A stretch of DNA of 64,000 nucleotides from Rhizobium sp. SL86 (lineage in GTDB: Bacteria; Pseudomonadota; Alphaproteobacteria; Rhizobiales; Rhizobiaceae). The notes below the pieces were generated by a model. That model saw only the letters and a program-made list of their open reading frames with translations. It was not told the origin of the DNA and did not search any database. This document shows positions 4,515 through 13,507 of the stretch, piece after piece; position 1 is the first letter of the stretch, and each line of letters opens with the position of its first letter. Location of the stretch: NCBI RefSeq assembly GCF_026672545.1, contig NZ_JAPPRJ010000009.1:124001-188000 (forward strand), given 5' to 3'. Position numbers and translations under genes: made by a program.

Positions 4515-4599
4515 GCGGACGTGGCGAAACTGGTAGACGCAAGGGACTTAAAATCCCTCACCTTCGGGTATACGGGTTCGACCCCCGTCGTCCGCACCA
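4515..4599 (+). tRNA. tRNA-Leu (anticodon UAA)
   Basis: An 85-nt class II tRNA: the acceptor GCGGACG (4515-4521) pairs with CGTCCGC (4589-4595), followed by discriminator A and an encoded CCA. The anticodon loop is CTTAAAA, giving UAA. It has a long variable arm and a T-arm GGGTTCGACCCC. Its 3' 18 nt are duplicated at 11971-11988, which marks it as the integration target of the island. The tRNA copy at this end remains complete. Confidence 0.97.
4582..4599 (+). repeat. attL core: 18-bp direct repeat in the tRNA-Leu 3' end
   Basis: CCCCCGTCGTCCGCACCA, including the encoded CCA, is identical to 11971-11988. The flanking bases on both sides differ between the two copies, so the repeat is exactly 18 bp. 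It covers part of the T-arm and the acceptor 3' strand. Confidence 0.93.
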
Positions 4600-4663
4600 C
4601 TACAAAGAAAACCCTTGTAGTTTCAGATTGTTGATTGATATCAAAGCTTTTCAGACGCCCATC

Positions 4664-4684
4664 GCTACAAAGGGCGCTACAAAG
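4664..4684 (+). repeat. Paired GCTACAAAG motifs, candidate integrase arm sites (left)
   Basis: GCTACAAAG occurs at 4664-4672 and again at 4676-4684, a 12-bp period. A further CTACAAAG lies at 4600-4607, and its reverse complement CTTGTAG lies at 4614-4620. A matching pair with the same period is found just inside the right end of the island. The last copy ends one base before the preferred integrase ATG, so protein bound here could repress the integrase gene. Confidence 0.6.
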
Positions 4685-4685
4685 C

Positions 4686-6335
4686 ATGGTTCAGATGACG
4701 ACGTTGAGCAAAGCCACAAACGGAGATTGGTTCGCCAGAAAAGCGATTCCCGCTGATGTCCGTGAAGCCTATCAGGCAGCCTATAAAGTGCGTCGAGAGG
4801 AGCGCTTCCGTCGATCCTCATCTCTGCCTCAGGGACATGCCAAGGCCGACTTCAGGGATTGGGATGCTGAGATCACCAGCAGAATCGAAGCGCTCAGGGC
4901 GAAGGCGGCTGACAGCGAAATCCGTCTGACGCCTCGGAAGATCAGTGCCCTATCAGGGCAATGGTACGCGTGGTTCGTTGACCAGCACAGTGACGAGCCG
5001 GGAGAACCGGAGGACTGGGACTCTCGCGACGAGATGCTGACGGCTGTCTATGATCGCTTCAACATCGGCTTTCCCGGTGAGGGTCGCGACACGATCGGTG
5101 CAGCCGCGAAACGACACATTCACGCCAAGCTCGTCGAGATGGGGAAGGTGGAGACGTTCCTCGCGGAGCATTCGCAGAAGCTGGACATTGAGACACGCAG
5201 CGCCTTCCTCGATGTCCTTGAGCTGGAGCTGCCAGCTGCCTTTGGTTTGCTTCGTCGTCGTGCTGGGGGAGACTTTTCGCCTGACGAGAGGCTGGCACGT
5301 TTCGCCCTGGCATCCGCTCACACGCCAACCAGAGGGCAGAAGCTGGCTGGTCTGGATTGCTGGCAGGCATTTGAAGCGTGGGTCAAGGAGCGTCAGCCGG
5401 CACCCGCAACGGTGGACCGCTGGAGAAGCGTCTTCCTCGGACTGAATACCCATTTCCACAGGCGCGATGTTGCCACTATCACCGCTGACGATGCGGTGAA
5501 GTGGAAGGACACTCTGGTCACCGAGAAGCGGTCTGGACAGGTGGCCAATGACATCTGGATCACGGCAGCGGTCACCATCTTCAATTGGCTCAAGGAGAAC
5601 CGGAAGATCAGCGAGAATCCGTTTGCTGGCGTTCGTGTAGCGACCGCAAAGAAGGTGAAACGTCGGGAGAGGGCCTTCACCGATGAAGAGTGGAAGAAGA
5701 TTTTGGCGGCATCACTTGAGCCCTCAACCGGACGTCTGAAGGCGCAAAAAGCCGCTGCACGTCGATGGGTGCCGTGGTTGTGTGCCTATACAGGATCGCG
5801 ACCGGGAGAGATGACGCAGCTCAGAGGGACCAGTGTCCGTCGCGAGGGAGCGATCTGGATTATCGACATCACGCCGGAAGACGGCACGGTAAAGGGTGCG
5901 TCCTACCGGAAGGTGCCGATCCATGAGCATCTGATCGAAATGGGTTTCCTTGAGTTCGCTCGATCAGCCGGCGAGGGGCCGCTTTTCTACGATCCCAAGG
6001 AGAAGAGGGCTGCGAGCGACGACCCGACAAAGCCAGTTCGTGAGCCGTATGTCATCGCTCGCAACAAGCTGGCTGAATGGGTGCGCAACAGCGTGAAAAT
6101 TGTCGACCCGGACATCAGCCCCAACCACGCATGGCGTCACACCTTCAAGCGAATGGCGGCACGACACGGGATGGAGAAGCGCTTCAGGTTCGCGTTCTGT
6201 GGGCACGAGTCGGATGACGTGGGCGACATCTATGAAACTCCCACGCTGGAGGACATGGCGGAAGAGCTGAAAAAGTTCCCCCGCTATGTTCTCGACGGAG
6301 ACAGCGTTGACCCTGATGAAGATGAAACGGCCTGA
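4686..6335 (+). CDS. int: Tyrosine recombinase / phage-type integrase
   Basis: This 549-aa integrase has the catalytic set of the tyrosine recombinase family visible: Arg372 (YTGSRPGEM), His481 and Arg484 (HAWRHTF), His507 (CGHESDDV) and the nucleophile Tyr516 (DIYETP). An N-terminal SAM-like core-binding region lies around residues 240-330. The protein is longer than lambda-type integrases (about 350-400 aa) because of an extended N-terminal half, as in many island integrases of Rhizobiales. It lies directly beside the attL tRNA-Leu and very likely catalyses the 18-bp site-specific integration. The ATG at 4686 was chosen; a TTG at 4635 and an ATG at 4695 are alternatives. Confidence 0.93.
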   Translation: MVQMTTLSKATNGDWFARKAIPADVREAYQAAYKVRREERFRRSSSLPQGHAKADFRDWDAEITSRIEALRAKAADSEIRLTPRKISALSGQWYAWFVDQHSDEPGEPEDWDSRDEMLTAVYDRFNIGFPGEGRDTIGAAAKRHIHAKLVEMGKVETFLAEHSQKLDIETRSAFLDVLELELPAAFGLLRRRAGGDFSPDERLARFALASAHTPTRGQKLAGLDCWQAFEAWVKERQPAPATVDRWRSVFLGLNTHFHRRDVATITADDAVKWKDTLVTEKRSGQVANDIWITAAVTIFNWLKENRKISENPFAGVRVATAKKVKRRERAFTDEEWKKILAASLEPSTGRLKAQKAAARRWVPWLCAYTGSRPGEMTQLRGTSVRREGAIWIIDITPEDGTVKGASYRKVPIHEHLIEMGFLEFARSAGEGPLFYDPKEKRAASDDPTKPVREPYVIARNKLAEWVRNSVKIVDPDISPNHAWRHTFKRMAARHGMEKRFRFAFCGHESDDVGDIYETPTLEDMAEELKKFPRYVLDGDSVDPDEDETA

Positions 6336-6352: not shown

Positions 6353-7405
6353 TCAGTCTGCGTATTTTTTCGCTGTCGCCCTCAGCCGATCAGTGAAGTC
6401 ATAAATCTGGTCGAGGCTGTCAACGATAACGCGCTCCTCGTTCTCGCCATCGAAAAGTCCGATGTATTTGACCGATCGGTTGAACCAAAGCCGGGCGAGG
6501 GGCTTGCGATTGTTGTTGTCGATGAGGATGCCGCAATAGGACTTCTGGTCCCTCATTACGACACGCTTGGGAGCGATTGTGTCCCGCACGATGGCCTTCA
6601 CGATCATGTAGCCTTCACGCTCTTCCTCGGTCGTGACGACATCTGGTTCCTCTTCAACCGGGACATCTATCTTCTCGATCACTTCCTCGGTGTCAGCCAA
6701 CGCGCTGGATAGCCGGCTCTTCACGGTGTCCATAATGACCTCTCGGAAAGCCGCTCTGACCACCCCGGTGAACATCTCACGCACTTGCGCGGTCATTCGG
6801 CCTTCGTAGACGCTTGCCGAGACGAGGCGCACGAAGTCCTCTGTCGGCTCCTCCACAAGTTTGGAAATGACCTGCTTCACGCCAGACGTGTACTTCAGCC
6901 GCTCCGCTGTCGCCAAGATCGCATTCACATCGAACGCGGCCTTCTCAAATTTCTTCAGCTCGCTGAGGATGCCCGTGTTGAAGTCAGCTATGTCGAAGAT
7001 GAAGAATGGGCGCGTGTCCAGTTTGTTTGGGGCGTCGAGGTCCGTGTAGAAATTAAATGTGCGCCCGTTCGTCAGGATCGCAAACTTGGCATTCGTGACG
7101 CTGAAGTAGCGATAGAGCTGGTCGAGGTGCTTCTTCTCCAGTGTCACCGAGATCGGTTTGCACTCGATCAAGATACGAATTTCCCCGTCAATCTTGATCG
7201 CATAATCGACTTTCTCCCCCTTTTTGCCAACCGCATCAGCGGTGAACTCAGGGACGACCTCGGAAGGGTCGAATACGTCGTAGCCCAACGAGCGCAAGAA
7301 CGGCAGGACCACTGCTGTCTTCACCGCTTCCTCGGTCGCCATTGTGCTGGAATGGGATTTCACGCGTTCCGATATGGCGCGAAGACTCTCTTCTAGTGTG
7401 CTCAT
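6353..7405 (-). CDS. Stand-alone type I restriction R-subunit N-domain nuclease (HSDR_N-like)
   Basis: This 350-aa protein carries a PD-(D/E)XK-type core: Asp67 (KVDYAIKIDG) followed by Glu81-Cys-Lys83 (RILIECKPI), then the helix HLDQLYRYFSVT. This matches the HSDR_N domain of type I restriction R subunits and their free-standing relatives. There is no helicase, methylase or specificity subunit, so it cannot form a normal type I system. The C-terminal half (after residue 200) has an acidic linker and a small beta-rich domain (YCGILIDNNNRKPLARLWFN) I do not recognise. The ATG at 7405 follows GGGGAG. It is convergent with int, with 17 bp between them. A role in DNA defence is likely but not shown. 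Confidence 0.78.
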   Translation of the reverse strand: MSTLEESLRAISERVKSHSSTMATEEAVKTAVVLPFLRSLGYDVFDPSEVVPEFTADAVGKKGEKVDYAIKIDGEIRILIECKPISVTLEKKHLDQLYRYFSVTNAKFAILTNGRTFNFYTDLDAPNKLDTRPFFIFDIADFNTGILSELKKFEKAAFDVNAILATAERLKYTSGVKQVISKLVEEPTEDFVRLVSASVYEGRMTAQVREMFTGVVRAAFREVIMDTVKSRLSSALADTEEVIEKIDVPVEEEPDVVTTEEEREGYMIVKAIVRDTIAPKRVVMRDQKSYCGILIDNNNRKPLARLWFNRSVKYIGLFDGENEERVIVDSLDQIYDFTDRLRATAKKYAD

Positions 7406-7538
7406 CAAGCTCCCCTCACGTTATTCGTGCATGGTTGCCCAGCGCTGGTCCTGCGTCAACTGCTCGGAAGGGGGATTACCACCCACTTAAGCAAACCGAA
7501 ATCGCGACCCTGATTGGGCGCTTGTCAGGAACATTAAA

Positions 7539-7799
7539 ATGACCAACGAACTCACGCTTCACACCGTCAATGAAGAGCCCCGCGTGTTTGATGCCGACCT
7601 AGCCGAGCGGCTGGGCATGGATCGCTGAACGAATATCCGCGGTCAGATCATTAAGTCCGACCGACCTGAACTGCCAACCTGCGGTGAGCTTTGCACTTGT
7701 CGGTGGCTGTTGAGAACCGCGCATATTTGGTGCCGAGACGGGATTACGGCGAATCTGGACGCGGCGGACAGGGCCCTGAGATTATTGCAAAGGTTTTGA
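7539..7799 (+). pseudogene. Broken phage antirepressor-like gene remnant
   Basis: The frame begins at ATG 7539 with MTNELTLHTVNEEPRVFDAD followed by LAERLGM, which resembles the start of Rha/antirepressor-type phage proteins. It is interrupted by a TGA at 7626-7628. In the same frame, similarity appears to continue (TNIRGQIIKSDRPELPTCGE) to a second stop at 7797-7799. The protein is therefore truncated at 29 residues. I treat it as a decayed prophage or island gene. Family assignment is from memory of the typical N-terminus and is tentative. Confidence 0.5.
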
Positions 7800-7810
7800 T
7801 GGGGGAGATG

Positions 7811-7864
7811 AGCGCGGGATGTGGCGTCAGGAGCCCGGAGGGCGACTGAGGCACATCCCGCGCT
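7811..7864. repeat. Long hairpin: perfect 13-bp inverted repeat
   Basis: AGCGCGGGATGTG (7811-7823) is the exact reverse complement of 7852-7864, with a 28-nt spacer. It has no T-run, so it is a weak terminator candidate. It could be a mobile-element end, a small structured RNA or a protein-binding site within the island. Confidence 0.55.
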
Positions 7865-8086
7865 GCGTCCGTCAATGATAGACTGGCGGAGCGCCGCAAA
7901 CAGACATCGACCAAAGCTACCAGGCCAATTCGATGTCCAATCCCTCAGGCATCTGTGAGATGACGTGGCTGTCATCACGCAGGACTGCCGACTGGTTCAC
8001 GGTGAGCGTCATTATAATGGTATTGGCGCATTCCGTCGAGCTTCTCCGATCAATCCCGACGGCGCTTCGAAAGGTGCGCCGCCGCG

Positions 8087-9280
8087 ATGCAAACTGCTCG
8101 TTTCTTCCTCTGCGGGCGGTGTCGCGCGCAGGTTCTGCTTTGCCGCCATTGCGATCGGGGTCAGCGCTATTGCGGTTCTGCCTGCGCCCATGCGGCGCGC
8201 CGTGACAGCCTGCGGGCAGCCGGACGGCGCTACCAGAGCACCCGGCCGGGGCGCTTTGCCCATGCCGATCGCTCCCGCCGATATCGGCAGGCTCGCAAAA
8301 ACGTGACGCATCACTCTCCACCCGTCGTTCCAGAGGGTTCACGACTGAAGGCGTCCACAAACGGCGGCATCGTTGCACCGGGCGATGGCACCGCTGGCGT
8401 GGTGTCATCGATCGAGCCGTGGTGCCGGCGCTGCGGCAGCTCTGTGCCGCTGTTCTTTCGCCGCGGCTTCGTGCGTCGCCGGGGGACACACGTGCGTCCA
8501 GACACGGCGACGACAAGCTGGTTGGGGATGGCGAGGGACGTTTCCACAGTGGGGGTGTCAGCGAGCCTTTTGGTGGGCGTCAGCTACCTAACTGGTACCT
8601 GTGCAGCAATTGGTTGGCACACCTTCGGTTATCTGACTGCAACCGATATTGCGAGAAGCGCGCTCAGGGTTAGCCCTTGGTTGGTCCTTGCGTTCGCGGC
8701 GGGGCAGCTTCTTCGCATACTGATTCCGGCGCTAGATTTGTTGTCTCCAATTCCGCGCGGTGACGGATCACGTGGACAGCTTCGCTTCCTCCGGTTCCAA
8801 TTCGTTGTTGTTCCCATCTTTCTGCTCCCCGCCTACCTCTTCCTAAGTGATCGTTCATTTAATGCGGTCGCCCCTCCACTAGTGATGGCGTTGTCCTTCG
8901 CCCTTTCGGACTATGTGAACGATCTCTACAGGGAAGGCGCACTCGATGCGGCAACACGGATAGCCTCAAACATGGCAATCCTCTGCGTATGCGTCGCAAG
9001 TTTCGGATATCTTGGCACCGCCAACACCGTCTTTGCGGAGAGGAAAACGGTACGCGAGGTCGTCTGTCTCAACTCGGGTTGTCGAGATGCGAAGATCATC
9101 GCCCGCTTCTCCGAAGCTACGTTTCTTCAGTGGGAGAAAGATGATGACATCACCATTTTGATGAATGGCGAGATAATCGGCATCACCCTGAAGCAAGGGA
9201 GGCCAGGCGGGCCGATAATCGACCTTCGCCCTTACTTCCGTGCCTTAAAAGTTCGGGTCCAAGCGTGGCTCAATCTTTGA
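8087..9280 (+). CDS. Chimeric protein: Cys-rich zinc-finger-like N-domain plus membrane domain
   Basis: The 397-aa frame reads as two unrelated halves. Residues 1 to about 140 form a Cys/Arg-rich domain (CGRCRAQVLLCRHCDRGQRY, more Cys at 29 and 33, then WCRRCGSSVPLFFRRGFVRR) resembling a small protein I associate with transposon regions. From Met148 (nt 8528) the protein changes to a membrane protein with about five hydrophobic segments (for example FQFVVVPIFLLPAYLFL) and a soluble C-terminus. Either this is a genuine fusion created by recombination, or a separate membrane protein begins at ATG 8528 and the upstream frame is a remnant. No catalytic motif is visible in the membrane part. Confidence 0.5.
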   Translation: MQTARFFLCGRCRAQVLLCRHCDRGQRYCGSACAHAARRDSLRAAGRRYQSTRPGRFAHADRSRRYRQARKNVTHHSPPVVPEGSRLKASTNGGIVAPGDGTAGVVSSIEPWCRRCGSSVPLFFRRGFVRRRGTHVRPDTATTSWLGMARDVSTVGVSASLLVGVSYLTGTCAAIGWHTFGYLTATDIARSALRVSPWLVLAFAAGQLLRILIPALDLLSPIPRGDGSRGQLRFLRFQFVVVPIFLLPAYLFLSDRSFNAVAPPLVMALSFALSDYVNDLYREGALDAATRIASNMAILCVCVASFGYLGTANTVFAERKTVREVVCLNSGCRDAKIIARFSEATFLQWEKDDDITILMNGEIIGITLKQGRPGGPIIDLRPYFRALKVRVQAWLNL

Positions 9281-9413
9281 CGTGTCTCACACGTGCAGGG
9301 TCTAATGACTCCCCTGAAAACCATCACCTGATGGTGTCACACAAGTGGGTATTGCATTTTGACACTGATGGTGTCACAAGGTCTAAGAACCTTTTGGCCC
9401 TCAGGAGATCAAT
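9280..9413 (+). promoter_or_regulatory. Inverted and direct repeats upstream of the serine recombinase (candidate res site/operator)
   Basis: Three short inverted repeats are present: ACGTGT/ACACGT (9280-9294), CCATCA/TGATGG (9321-9334) and TGACAC/GTGTCA (9360-9376). A 14-bp direct repeat CTGATGGTGTCACA occurs at 9328-9341 and 9365-9378, 37 bp apart. Resolvase genes often lie next to a multi-site res region that also serves as their operator, so this 130-bp block is a candidate for both. Confidence 0.5.
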
Positions 9414-9974
9414 GTGCCATCCACCGTTATCGGCTACGCCCGCACCTCCACCCTCGATCAGACCTATGGCCTCGACGCCCAGCTCAGAGACCTGACCGCT
9501 GCCGGCTGCGAGAAGATATTTCAGGAGCAGGTGTCCTCGGTCGACAAGTCTAGACCCGAACTGGAGAGGGCGCTCGATTACGTTCGCGAGGGGGATGTCT
9601 TCGTCGTTACCAAGCTCGACCGTTTGGCGCGATCCATGGCCGATCTGGTCAAGTTGCGGGATACGCTCCAATCCAAGGGTGCGACACTAAAAGTCCTGGC
9701 ACTTGGGATTGATACCTCCACCCCGACAGGCAAGCTGATGATGAACCTCCTCGGCTCCATCGCTGAGTTCGAACGGGACATCATGCTGGAGCGTCAGCGT
9801 GAAGGGATCGCCAAGGCGAAAGAGGACGGCAAGTACAAGGGCAGGGCACCGACCGCGCTTCGTCAGGCCGATCAGGTCAGGCAGCTCAAGGGGGAAGGCA
9901 AGACAGCCGATCAGATTGTCGAAATTCTGGGGATAAGCAGGTCCAGTGTTTTCCGCATCTTGCGCCAGGAATAG
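9414..9974 (+). CDS. Serine recombinase (resolvase/invertase family)
   Basis: This 186-aa protein has the canonical resolvase layout. The N-terminal catalytic domain has Ser12 in IGYARTSTLDQ and the arginine motif TKLDRLARS. The E-helix region follows (GKLMMNLLGSIAEFERDIML, then ERQREG), and a C-terminal Hin-type helix-turn-helix (TADQIVEILGISRSSVFRIL) ends the protein. The length matches TnpR/Pin enzymes (180-200 aa). The start is a GTG at 9414 with AGGAG about 7 nt upstream. No transposase or invertible cassette is visible beside it, so its target may be the repeat block immediately upstream. It is part of the island. Confidence 0.93.
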   Translation: MPSTVIGYARTSTLDQTYGLDAQLRDLTAAGCEKIFQEQVSSVDKSRPELERALDYVREGDVFVVTKLDRLARSMADLVKLRDTLQSKGATLKVLALGIDTSTPTGKLMMNLLGSIAEFERDIMLERQREGIAKAKEDGKYKGRAPTALRQADQVRQLKGEGKTADQIVEILGISRSSVFRILRQE

Positions 9975-10104
9975 GTCCGCTGAGACCTGAGCTTTGGAGG
10001 GGGCGATAATGAGTTTTCGCGATCGCGGATTGCTACCAGTTTCTGCTGAAGGCACTTGTGGTGGGGAACCGGTCGCGATTCGTTAGCGGCACCTTCCGGT
10101 GCGA

Positions 10105-11181
10105 CTATTCCTCGTCGGTCTCGCTCGGACTTTGTAGGGAAGAGGGATCTACAAGTTCGTGTCTTACGAGCTCCTTAAGAAGCTCCTGCTCACCCATTCC
10201 GTACAATAGGCCCTCAACTATGAACCCGCGCCTCAGTCGGTTCAGCCGGTCGTTAGAGGCCTGAATCGCCGCTTTGTAATAAATGCTTGCGAGCTGCGCA
10301 CTTCCAAATCGTTGAGCGTCTACCTCATCAAAGAAGTCTGATAGGGTTTCGACCACCGTCGTGGGATTGAGCGGCCCCTTCGACTCAAGGTGTCGATCTA
10401 GTTCAATGAATACGGTAAACAAATCTGCCTTTCTCCAAACCCGACTTTTCGGCGGGAAACCGCATTCTTCAATAAGTCCAAGAACTGCATTGATGCGACG
10501 CGCTATTTCTCCCTCGCGGACGAACGCGTCATTGTTCAGCTTAAGCACATCCTCAAGCTCTTCATCTCTGTTGAAATAGTCCGCCATCATAGTCGCGATG
10601 ATTGTAAGGCCGAACCTCAAGTCACCCATGCGCCTGTAGTCGAGGCTCGAGAATACCTTGTGATCAGAGAAGACGTGGTTATCTACGAATTTCTGAGCAA
10701 ATTTGTTTATCTCTCCCGAGTATACGGCGTTATTTATTTCTATATCTTCAAGAGAGTACTTTGTGGCGTTTATGCGCTGGAATGCCTCAACTATTTCTGA
10801 GCGTTTGATATTGCCCAGGTCTCTGACGGCTACGTCATATTGAAGGAACGCTTTTTTCTGGTCTTCATCGAGTTCCTTGTATGGCGGGATGGTGATTAGT
10901 TTCAGCGAAGGGTCTCCGGTAAAATACTGAACCAATGTGTTCACCCGCTGAAGTCCATCAACAAGAAGCTGTGTTCCCTCACCAGAGTCGAGGTCTACGT
11001 CCCCATCTGCCACGTATATTTCTGGAAATGGGAAGCCCTTCAACACTGAGTCTAGAAAGAAATCCTTGTCTTTATTCGTCCACACCAGCCTTCTCTGGAA
11101 CTCAGCGCGGGGGACGAGCCTGTTTTCTTTCACAATCGTAATGAGTTCGCGTATTTTCTTATTGGACGCCGAGGTCTTCAT
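10105..11181 (-). CDS. DUF262-domain protein (ParB/GmrS-like), partner of the upstream nucleotidyltransferase-like protein
   Basis: This 358-aa protein shows the DUF262 signature: an N-terminal PRAEFQRRLVWTNKDKDFFL block, then LLVDGLQRVNTLVQYF, the DGQQR-type motif with Leu replacing the first Gln. DUF262 is a ParB/sulfiredoxin-like domain found in GmrSD and SspE-type modification-dependent enzymes and other defence proteins, where it is linked to nucleotide binding or hydrolysis. No HNH/DUF1524 nuclease domain follows; the C-terminal 150 residues are helical and unrecognised. The start codon overlaps the stop of the upstream gene by 4 nt (ATGA), so the two are translationally coupled. Base composition is AT-richer than the core genome. 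Confidence 0.85.
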   Translation of the reverse strand: MKTSASNKKIRELITIVKENRLVPRAEFQRRLVWTNKDKDFFLDSVLKGFPFPEIYVADGDVDLDSGEGTQLLVDGLQRVNTLVQYFTGDPSLKLITIPPYKELDEDQKKAFLQYDVAVRDLGNIKRSEIVEAFQRINATKYSLEDIEINNAVYSGEINKFAQKFVDNHVFSDHKVFSSLDYRRMGDLRFGLTIIATMMADYFNRDEELEDVLKLNNDAFVREGEIARRINAVLGLIEECGFPPKSRVWRKADLFTVFIELDRHLESKGPLNPTTVVETLSDFFDEVDAQRFGSAQLASIYYKAAIQASNDRLNRLRRGFIVEGLLYGMGEQELLKELVRHELVDPSSLQSPSETDEE

Positions 11182-11762
11182 TTCATTTTCTCCAAAGACT
11201 GGCAGGCTCTTACCGAGCGCTCAATGTACTGTTTTAGGTGGTCGGTCGAGTAGAACAACCCGCCGGCGATCTTATGAAAACCCACGACCCGATTTTTGGT
11301 CAGGGTTGAAAAGCAATCCCACCATACGTTCCGATAGTAGAGGTCAATTGGTAGTTTGTCGGGCCGAAGCCATCCGTAGATCATGTAGTTTCCGAGGCCG
11401 TCGATTGAGTTGGGCCATGGGGCCAGTCCGTGTCCGTGACGGGAGACTTCCCTCCACAGCATCGTGAACAAGCGCGCCGAGACGACTGCGCAGTCTATGT
11501 CTGATTCAGCACTAAACGGGCGATATCGGGCAAGGCCGAGTTTCGGCTTTTCTACGAGCGAGAAACCAAGGTGCGCTGAGCCAGTGATGTGAAGGCGTAG
11601 ATCGTGGGACTTGAGGCCATAGGCAGATCTCACTTCTTCTACTATCCTCTCCTTCTGGGTTATCGATACTTTCTGTGACGGCGTGTCGAAGAAAAACTCT
11701 TGGACTATGGCGTCACATTCCTCAGTCGCGAGCTTGGAGATGAAGTCTTTAAGTGTCGCCAT
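11178..11762 (-). CDS. Small nucleotidyltransferase-like protein, operon partner of the DUF262 gene
   Basis: This 194-aa protein has the minimal nucleotidyltransferase pattern: GSAHLGFSL (Gly61-Ser62), then SDIDCAVV (Asp88, Asp90), and a third acidic residue Asp140 in the strand KLPIDLYY. The spacing fits the Pol-beta fold GS...DxD...D, which suggests it transfers a nucleotide to a protein, RNA or small molecule. It is much shorter than CBASS CD-NTases (about 300-400 aa), and its partner is DUF262 rather than a HEPN toxin. It is first in a two-gene operon. The start is ATG 11762 or GTG 11768; neither has a strong ribosome binding site. I know no named system with exactly this pairing. Confidence 0.65.
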   Translation of the reverse strand: MATLKDFISKLATEECDAIVQEFFFDTPSQKVSITQKERIVEEVRSAYGLKSHDLRLHITGSAHLGFSLVEKPKLGLARYRPFSAESDIDCAVVSARLFTMLWREVSRHGHGLAPWPNSIDGLGNYMIYGWLRPDKLPIDLYYRNVWWDCFSTLTKNRVVGFHKIAGGLFYSTDHLKQYIERSVRACQSLEKMK

Positions 11763-11889
11763 CTGCACATTTCTAAGTCAACGAGAACGTGTGTCCTCAA
11801 TTGACACTCAATCCTCCCCGGCAGTCAAGATAGAGCTTGAGCAGGGCTGGAAATCCCCGTTAATGGAGTTGTCTAGGCCCGGGCAACTT

Positions 11890-11970: not shown

Positions 11971-11988
11971 CCCCCGTCGTCCGCACCA
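11971..11988 (+). repeat. attR core: 18-bp copy of the tRNA-Leu 3' end
   Basis: Identical to 4582-4599. The rest of the tRNA is absent, so this is the displaced 3' fragment left after integration and it marks the right end of the island. Confidence 0.93.
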
Positions 11989-12052: not shown

Positions 12053-13507
12053 TTACCGGCGCCAGAAGATTGGCGTGATCAGCACCATCACGGTCAGGAT
12101 CTCCAGTCGGCCGAGCAGCATCATCAGCGATAGGAGATAGAGCGCCGGTGTCGTGAGCGTTGAGAAGTTGCCCGCCGGGCCAATGATGTTGCCGATTCCC
12201 GGACCGACGTTCGAGAGGCAGGTGATGACGGCCGACACCGAGGTGATGACGTCATATCCGAGCATTGCCATGCACAGGCTGCCGAAGGCCCACAGCAACA
12301 CGTAGAGGCTGACGAACAGGAAGATGCCGCGCAGCACTTCCGGATCGACCGTCGCATTGCCGTAGCGAACGGGATAGATCGCGTTCGGGTAGATCAGCCG
12401 TTTGGTGCCGGCCCGGATCACGTTGAAGATCACCACAAGCCGGTAGGCCTTGATGCCGCCGGCCGTGGAACCGGAGCAGCCGCCGAGGAAAGTGGCGAAA
12501 AAGGCGAGCACCACGAGGAAGGGCCCCCAGAGTGTGTAATCCTCGCTGGCAAAGCCGGTCGTCGACAGGATCGACGAGATGTTGAAGAACGAATGCGTCA
12601 TCGCCACAGAAATGTCGACGCCGTTTCTGACATGGTTGTAGAGGCCTGCCAGAATGGCGAACAATACGAGATAACCGAGAAAGAATCCCACCTGCGGATC
12701 ACGCAGGCTGTCCAGCCGTCTGCGAATCGCAAACAGGATGAGGATCGAGAAGGGCAGACTGCACAGGGTCATGAAGAAGGTGCCGATCCACATCAGTGGC
12801 AGGCTCTGGAAATACCCAAAGGATGCGTCATGCGTGGAGAACCCGCCCGTGGCGACGGTCGCCATCGCATGGTTGATGGCGTCGAAATGGCTCATGCCGA
12901 ACATGTCGTAGCTGACCGTGCAGGCGACCGTGATGCCGACATAGACAGCCATGAAGGCCCGGGTGAAGCTCGCAATCTTGGCGAAGGGTTTGTCGTTCGT
13001 ATCCGAGGATTCCATCTTGAAGAACGACATGCCGCCAACCCGCAGGAACGGCAGGACAAAAAGCCCGAGCGCGACGATCCCGATGCCGCCCAGCCAGTGC
13101 AGCAGCGAGCGCCACATCAGAACGCCGGGCGGCATCGAATCGAGGCCGCTCAACACCGTGGAGCCGGTGGTGGTGATCGCCGAGATTGATTCGAACAGCG
13201 CCTGGGCAAAGCTCAACCCGATCGGCGACAGGTAGAGCGGGATCGCGCCGATCAGCGAAAAGACCGCCCAGAGAAGATTGACGATGAAGAAACCGAAGCG
13301 TTTGTTGAACACCGGCGGCGTGCCGCGTGTTGCCATGGCGGCGGCCAGCGACAGACCGCCGACCATGGCGGCCGACAAAGCGAAGATCCGCCAGTCCGGA
13401 TTGCCGTAATACAAATCGGCAAGCGCCGGGATCAGCATCGCCGCCGACAGGTAAAGTCCACACAGCCCCGAGATGTAAATCGAAGAGCGGAATAGGTTCG
13501 CGTTCAA
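12053..13507 (-). CDS. trkH: Trk potassium uptake membrane subunit TrkH
   Basis: This 484-aa polytopic membrane protein belongs to the TrkH/KtrB superfamily of K+ translocators. The four pseudo-repeats of the selectivity filter are visible: ITTTGSTV, ATVATGGFST, SSILSTTGFA and TCLSNVGPG. TrkH normally works with the cytoplasmic NAD(H)/ATP-binding TrkA, which is not in this window. The apparent start is a TTG at 13507 with no clear ribosome binding site; the resulting N-terminus (MNANLFRSSIYISGLCGLYL) fits the family. It is divergent from the threonine ammonia-lyase gene, and its 3' end lies just outside the island. Confidence 0.93.
   Translation of the reverse strand: MNANLFRSSIYISGLCGLYLSAAMLIPALADLYYGNPDWRIFALSAAMVGGLSLAAAMATRGTPPVFNKRFGFFIVNLLWAVFSLIGAIPLYLSPIGLSFAQALFESISAITTTGSTVLSGLDSMPPGVLMWRSLLHWLGGIGIVALGLFVLPFLRVGGMSFFKMESSDTNDKPFAKIASFTRAFMAVYVGITVACTVSYDMFGMSHFDAINHAMATVATGGFSTHDASFGYFQSLPLMWIGTFFMTLCSLPFSILILFAIRRRLDSLRDPQVGFFLGYLVLFAILAGLYNHVRNGVDISVAMTHSFFNISSILSTTGFASEDYTLWGPFLVVLAFFATFLGGCSGSTAGGIKAYRLVVIFNVIRAGTKRLIYPNAIYPVRYGNATVDPEVLRGIFLFVSLYVLLWAFGSLCMAMLGYDVITSVSAVITCLSNVGPGIGNIIGPAGNFSTLTTPALYLLSLMMLLGRLEILTVMVLITPIFWRR

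Follow-up and report, generated by a model that had tools for sequence, protein, structure and literature searches.

A nucleotidyltransferase-like gene and a stand-alone DUF262 gene form a multi-phylum two-gene unit and a candidate anti-phage module

The gene pair and its products

A 64,000-nucleotide stretch of the Rhizobium sp. SL86 genome (contig NZ_JAPPRJ010000009.1, positions 124,001 to 188,000; hereafter the window) carries a gene with a nucleotidyltransferase (NTase) motif followed directly by a stand-alone DUF262 gene (Table 1). The NTase stop codon and the DUF262 start codon share the letters ATGA, giving a 4-nt overlap at 11178-11181; both frames and the overlap were located as the initial annotation had described them. 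An alternative start of the NTase frame (GTG 11768) gives 196 amino acids (aa). A protein 98% identical to the window NTase (P0001) likewise has 194 aa. NTase residues are numbered below on the 196-aa form.

Table 1. Features of the island that carries the gene pair, in window coordinates.
Feature	Position	Strand	Description
NTase gene	11178..11762	minus	194 aa from ATG 11762; motif GSAHLGFS...SDID plus RPDKLP
Stand-alone DUF262 gene	10105..11181	minus	358 aa; N-terminal ParB/Srx-like domain with DGLQR, helical C-terminal part
tRNA-Leu (taa)	4515..4599	+	Integration site of the island
attL, 18 bp	4582..4599		3' end of tRNA-Leu
attR, 18 bp	11971..11988		Exact copy of attL; far island edge; empty sites in G444 and G403
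Tyrosine recombinase (integrase)	4635..6335	+	Adjoins the tRNA gene; Pfam Phage_integrase 3.5e-4, 20.8 bits, below cut-off 27.1
Serine resolvase	9414..9974	+	PF00239, 5.7e-45; beyond DUF262, opposite strand; outside the pair

The GS...DxD...D pattern on which the first gene had been called an NTase is strongly conserved. Residues G63, S64, D90 and D92 are invariant across 96 aligned proteins (window included) and D137 is present in 95 of the 96; the GS and DxD motifs are also invariant in a further set of 12 proteins. The motif is of the polymerase-beta type, and the best listed solved folds were MNT chains and other minimal NTases, so that the fold is NTase-like at modest scores. A single long C-terminal helix follows the last strand. 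The window NTase matched no family in Pfam, NCBIfam or PADLOC at E <= 1, and a distant kinship with AbiEii/MenT is possible.

No PADLOC cyclase model matched the window NTase at E <= 1, and a few relatives match such models weakly. This bears on a reading resembling the cyclic oligonucleotide-based antiphage signalling system (CBASS), in which the NTase would respond to infection by making a soluble (oligo)nucleotide, with DUF262 as the receptor or effector. CBASS-type nucleotidyltransferases (CD-NTases) comprise about 300 aa or more, longer than the 194 to 196 aa of the window protein. Related DUF262 proteins are moreover paired with HEPN-like or ATPase genes with no NTase next door (see below), and signalling of this kind is considered very unlikely.

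The DUF262 assignment of the second gene was upheld by PF03235 (GmrSD_N/DUF262), which matched aa 22-152 at 60.8 bits against a cut-off of 33.2. The DGLQR motif, a variant form, occupies aa 75-79; D75, G76, Q78 and R79 do not vary among the 75 proteins aligned (window included), and D75, Q78 and R79 are kept in all 110 rows of the tree described below. The domain has a ParB/Srx-like fold. The best Foldseek match of the protein was BrxU (6.2e-4), and a Foldseek comparison with viral models gave no match at E <= 0.001. A DUF1524/HNH domain was sought with Pfam, and no match was obtained at E <= 1 in the window DUF262 protein or in five other scanned island proteins.

Modification-dependent restriction of type IV, in which the NTase would mark DNA or RNA and DUF262 would read or cut the mark, draws on the action of DUF262 on modified DNA, or its sensing, in GmrSD, BrxU and SspE, as given in the accessible parts of the literature, and on DUF262 genes that adjoin EcoRI-type methyltransferase-like genes (identified by eye). 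The missing DUF1524/HNH match argues against it, as does the finding that no nuclease family is common to the neighbourhoods of the pair. This is the least probable of the readings considered.

Linkage of the two genes across bacteria

A collection of genomes, one per species, was searched with an NTase profile. The search gave 137 pattern matches, 93 of which encode relatives, and the best 80 of the 93 were kept. These relatives came only by profile; a single-sequence search of genome contigs with the window protein returned nothing. In 77 of the 80 kept loci the next gene downstream, on the same strand, is a DUF262 homologue, and the NTase gene always comes first. Among the three unpaired loci, the contigs of L018 and L080 end in or just past the NTase gene; L036 has a decayed NTase, a fragment that shares 57.7% identity with the L026 protein over 111 residues, and a DUF262 gene was not found there. 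With the window included, 54 of 78 pairs overlap and 24 of 78 are 0-10 nt apart; furthest-upstream starts were used, so the overlap counts are upper bounds.

The 77 paired loci were distributed over 12 named phyla, with one locus lacking a phylum assignment. The NTase and DUF262 distance matrices were correlated over 78 pairs (r = 0.83; 0 of 2000 permutations as high), a value of which shared ancestry alone may explain part. Loci were partly non-independent: L136/L145, L137/L149 and L139/L154 represent the same contigs twice, L152 is nearly a copy of L153, and L015 and L082, whose contigs are equally long, probably represent a single locus. The pairing greatly exceeds what chance would give, and the two genes are a real unit.

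Neighbouring open reading frames (ORFs) were compared all against all (738 ORFs, 77 loci), and no widely shared third gene was found; the absence of a common nuclease family mentioned above comes from the same comparison. The largest cluster was an ABC/AAA-type protein at 13 loci, and most of the next ones reflected a chromosomal context common to Poribacteria loci. The description of the system as two genes without a third partner was thus supported, and a concern that they might rarely be adjacent elsewhere was answered by the 77 of 80 loci.

The pair is rare. The NTase profile matched 5 of 385 genomes of the same class, own genome included, one of them weakly and of another type by eye. G129, a weak match (3e-4), was excluded as a relative; by eye it is an ordinary MNT with a HEPN-like part. 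Among 60 close relatives the profile matched three, own genome included; the others, G398 and G429, each carry an NTase that is more distant, and neither gave a DUF262 match. Neither the window protein nor L138 had an NTase match in the known-phage collection. At L097 (G398, same genus; 6678-10739) a PIWI-like gene (PF02171, 4.2e-4, below cut-off) and a gene that by eye resembles SIR2-APAZ precede a more distant NTase relative of 258 aa, and genes downstream resemble type I restriction genes; the relative may be a short-Argonaute companion. A PIWI partner for the NTase, an idea taken from a same-genus relative (L087/L097) beside a PIWI-like gene, was dropped, the subfamily relative L098 having no such neighbour.

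Partner genes and the DUF262 tree

With DUF262 as bait, 109 relatives were obtained from phage contigs, of which the best 80 were kept, and 71 of the 385 genomes of the same class gave a match. Loci were scored over the whole ORF with a DUF262 profile (A2), which was built from NTase-paired proteins and is biased accordingly. At 170 bits or more (n = 14) an NTase gene lies upstream in 13 phage loci, and the other locus, L141, starts at the contig edge. One of the 13, L147, has a split NTase frame beside an open DUF262 frame. Between 100 and 170 bits (n = 12) the partners were HEPN-like in nine loci, a downstream ATPase gene in two and unlabelled in one; below 100 bits (n = 54) the corresponding numbers were 32, 13 and 9. 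A HEPN-like or ATPase gene therefore stands in place of the NTase in 56 of the 66 more distant phage loci.

In the genomes of the same class, the NTase-paired loci (G351, G000, G063 and G292) were already counted under other identifiers. None of the 26 further loci (L110-L135) reached 170 bits. Those at 100-170 bits comprised two HEPN-like and two unlabelled cases, and those below 100 bits comprised five HEPN-like, three ATPase, one methyltransferase and 13 unlabelled cases. The nearest case without an NTase (L110, HEPN-like, 168 bits) and the lowest with one (L104, 174 bits) are separated by a narrow gap.

Over 198 loci the partner labels were 100 NTase, 50 HEPN, 18 ATPase, 2 kinase, 1 methyltransferase and 27 unlabelled. 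The HEPN label was given when an ORF of 140-300 aa lying downstream contained R[NDHS]xxxH, a loose motif that was also present in 22 of 306 control ORFs (strict RNxxxH: 3 of 306). ATPase, kinase and methyltransferase labels were based on motifs or assigned by eye.

A quick tree independent of the A2 score was made from 110 DUF262 rows: 42 NTase-paired (of 100, picked for spread), 45 of 50 HEPN, 17 of 18 ATPase, 4 methyltransferase and 2 kinase. Near-identical HEPN and ATPase rows were dropped and 24 unlabelled loci were left out; L125, L131 and L135 entered as methyltransferase-paired, a label given by reading the neighbourhood. Three long rows were flagged (L208, L111 and L120). The partner class follows the DUF262 tree. 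Partner labels require 5 changes on it (minimum 4), compared with a mean of 50.3 after shuffling, and 0 of 200 shuffles were as low. NTase-paired DUF262 proteins form a main group of 36 rows and a divergent group of six (each with a support of 99 in the Shimodaira-Hasegawa-like approximate likelihood ratio test, SH-aLRT), which are not joined as one clade.

Two DUF262 residues track the partner. E54 is found in 40 and R120 in 39 of the 42 NTase-paired rows. Both are absent from all 68 rows of the other partner classes, and L084 and L085 have neither residue. The residues were picked post hoc, and they looked invariant in a first count that omitted the outliers L148, L150, L084 and L085, later restored. 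The alignment suggests that E54 and R120 could form a partner-specific site in DUF262.

Further partner arrangements were recorded. The E. coli plasmid locus L107, with DUF262 and an annotated HEPN protein, lies far off in the DUF262 tree. On Asticcacaulis plasmids (L105:3989-6135 and L106:2938-5080) the DUF262 gene overlaps an annotated protein-kinase gene, another partner type. EcoRI-type adenine methyltransferase-like genes were seen by eye upstream of DUF262 at L123, L131 and L135 and downstream at L125. On the phage contigs of L170, L176, L184, L205 and L211, a cytosine methyltransferase-like gene, a long DUF262 gene (539-658 aa) and an ATPase gene lie in a row.

These data bear on the polarity of the pair. 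In a toxin-antitoxin (TA)-like module the NTase would be an MntA-like antitoxin or regulator that nucleotidylates and silences DUF262, and DUF262 would be a toxic or DNA-attacking effector. Every row of the main 36-row clade has an NTase and none has a HEPN partner, which argues against this arrangement. At L147 the intact DUF262 frame beside the split NTase would leave a free toxin, a weak point given that a sequencing error is possible there. DUF262 in GmrSD-type proteins is viewed as a sensor that controls an effector domain, in the accessible text of the source cited below. The antitoxin reading is unlikely, and of the alternatives it has the strongest claim.

The island carrying the pair

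The initial annotation had placed the genes in an AT-rich segment of a tRNA-integrated island, and both statements were borne out. The pair falls in two 1-kb blocks whose guanine-cytosine content is the lowest of the window (0.495 and 0.510; the other 62 blocks, 0.511-0.672). The island measures approximately 7.4 kb and is bounded by the tRNA-Leu gene and the exact 18-bp repeat; the pair is its last cargo, at the attR end. Empty sites were sought in 40 genomes of the same genus and read off in two. In G444, 72 bp separate the tRNA end from the base that corresponds to window position 12057, where the match to the far flank begins, and in G403 the matched flanks are 5 bp apart.

The same island encodes an HSDR_N nuclease-like protein at 6353-7408 (Pfam 1.7e-13; phrog_4225 'endonuclease', 371 bits), possibly a second defence gene. 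A 397-aa frame at 8087-9280 has no family above cut-off, and its second half is membrane-protein-like by eye.

Mobile and prophage setting

A P2 gpA gene (PF05840) and a portal gene (PF04860) stand on either side of the pair at L138 and L140; three further ORFs share the gap at L138. E. coli strain 1500 has a main-type pair (L228:3286-4880; NTase 203 bits, DUF262 460 bits) between a 'replication endonuclease' and a 'phage portal protein'. The available text of PMC9519451 describes the gpA-portal spot as a defence hotspot, occupied by four of that paper's systems and known for tin and old. The pair is thus found at this hotspot in three P2-like (pro)phages and belongs there to two different clades. 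A divergent pair was matched in three E. coli genomes from pig among 5426 genomes searched; the one that was opened (L227) has phage genes around the pair. A main-type pair is carried on a 6.2-kb Cronobacter plasmid. On a phage contig (L139), a divergent NTase-DUF262 pair is followed after 537 bp by a KAP-family NTPase gene (PF07693; L139:7025-8767).

Immediate neighbours were scanned in the genome loci by taking the nearest ORF of at least 150 aa on each side, in 71 of 77 loci; 127 of 131 ORFs were used (L019:5352-5966, L031:2001-6674, L057:8529-13697 and L077:9286-12453 were left out). Their defence content was modest, as judged without a background control. The argument for defence is therefore carried by the hotspot and the partner swap and not by a general enrichment of islands.

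A non-immune role, as a maintenance or addiction pair of plasmids and islands or as a stress regulator, would agree with the occurrence of the pair on a small plasmid, an island and prophages, with its TA-operon-like layout and with these only modestly defence-like neighbours. It would sit less well with the presence of two different clades at the P2 hotspot in three (pro)phages, and with related operons that include DUF262 plus HEPN, the make-up of PD-T4-2. Such a role is improbable, although it is slightly favoured over the signalling reading.

Proposed mechanism

The preferred reading, to which we give a probability of about one half, is that the pair is a compact module against phages or other mobile elements, with DUF262 as a nucleoside triphosphate (NTP)-switch sensor and the NTase as effector. 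The defence role is suggested by genomic context. DUF262, a ParB/sulfiredoxin-fold NTP switch, would sense infection or foreign DNA and keep its partner in check; the released NTase would add nucleotides to an acceptor in the cell, the likeliest being an RNA end (for example tRNA) or a protein, and this transfer would stop phage growth. The use of NTP, the polarity of sensor and effector, the trigger and the acceptor are all put forward as proposed features of the model.

Because DUF262 is shared and the partner varies (predicted RNase, ATPase, kinase or NTase), DUF262 would be the sensor or switch and the NTase the effector. The published view of DUF262 in GmrSD-type proteins is that of a modification sensor which uses NTP and governs an effector domain (PMC12137116, accessible text), and NTase toxins that modify tRNA acceptor ends provide a precedent for the effector (PMC10435456, accessible text). 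Counting against the proposal are the reversed gene order and the MNT-like fold of the NTase, which would suit an antitoxin. The proposal of the initial annotation, a signal or modification that the NTase would produce and DUF262 would read, was not supported; no cyclase model was matched, and the partner tree is better fitted by DUF262 as sensor or switch with a variable effector, a polarity that is itself presumed.

A broader and more tentative form of the preferred reading is also possible. Stand-alone DUF262 may be a general NTP-switch sensor to which different effectors (HEPN RNase, ATPase, kinase, NTase) have been attached. The pair would then represent the NTase branch of these sensors: an immune system of ancient origin, spread over several phyla and still without a name, that would link phage sensing to nucleotidylation of RNA or protein, with coupling through branch-specific residues such as E54 and R120.

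If the pair is defensive, the DUF262 systems gain an NTase branch, and a clean comparison becomes available of one sensor domain with HEPN-like, ATPase, kinase and NTase partners, together with residues that track the partner. The pair is spread over 12 named phyla, yet the window NTase matched no family at E <= 1 in the three databases searched. Natural copies in E. coli prophages make the pair directly testable in laboratory strains.

Comparison with known systems

The pair lacks a defining part of each of GmrSD, Menshen, PD-T4-2 and HEPN-MNT. Menshen is a three-gene operon with an OLD/ATPase partner. Its NsnA protein (PDLC03877) is the best PADLOC match of the window DUF262 protein (93.1 bits, 5e-27, aa 5-215), but no OLD/ATPase gene was found among the scanned island proteins, and ATPase-paired DUF262 proteins are a separate group in the tree. 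PD-T4-2 also has a stand-alone DUF262 protein, and PD-T4-2_A of PADLOC matched the window DUF262 protein partially (61.6 bits), best over aa 12-95 of its 358 aa. The accessible text of PMC10952713 lists PD-T4-2 under both DUF262 and HEPN, and that of PMC9519451 reports phage protection. The window pair, in contrast, has no HEPN partner and has an upstream NTase-motif partner that matches neither PADLOC nor Pfam. The E. coli plasmid locus L107, which may be PD-T4-2 or a system like it, is distant in the tree.

The type IV restriction systems GmrSD, BrxU and SspE share the DUF262 domain, with BrxU as the top structural match; the window DUF262 protein differs in having no DUF1524/HNH match, and its partner gene encodes an NTase motif. 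HEPN-MNT (MntA-HepT, type VII TA) resembles the pair in having a small NTase beside a partner gene and, at modest scores, in the MNT chains among the best listed folds. The partner here is DUF262 and not HEPN, likewise in the 77 of 80 loci, and the window NTase has extra N-terminal helices, the RPDKLP block and a longer GS-to-DxD spacing than the MNT motif. MenAT/AbiE provides the NTase toxin precedent on tRNA acceptor ends (PMC10435456, as above), but at the window there is no AbiEi/MenA antitoxin gene; the one neighbour of the NTase is DUF262, and the island ends on its other side. PtuXYZ combines a DUF262 protein without DUF1524 with effector-like genes in one operon, these being a P-loop ATPase and a BECR-fold RNase, and no NTase is mentioned in the accessible text (PMC11980606).

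In layout the pair belongs with stand-alone DUF262 two-gene modules, in that the window DUF262 protein has no DUF1524 and lies next to one conserved partner gene. DUF262 proteins without DUF1524 are known, from the accessible text of the sources, in PD-T4-2, Menshen and Dazbog (PMC10952713), in PtuX (PMC11980606) and in TgvA and GrwB (PMC12409362, PMC12137116). The absence of a named system with these two genes, asserted in the initial annotation, agreed with a search of the literature, which returned no description or name of the NTase-DUF262 pair in the portions accessible and from which most subscription papers and preprints lay outside. Since DUF262 without DUF1524 has already been described and the NTase pair was found in no paper, the locus is regarded as a known kind of system in a new NTase variant.
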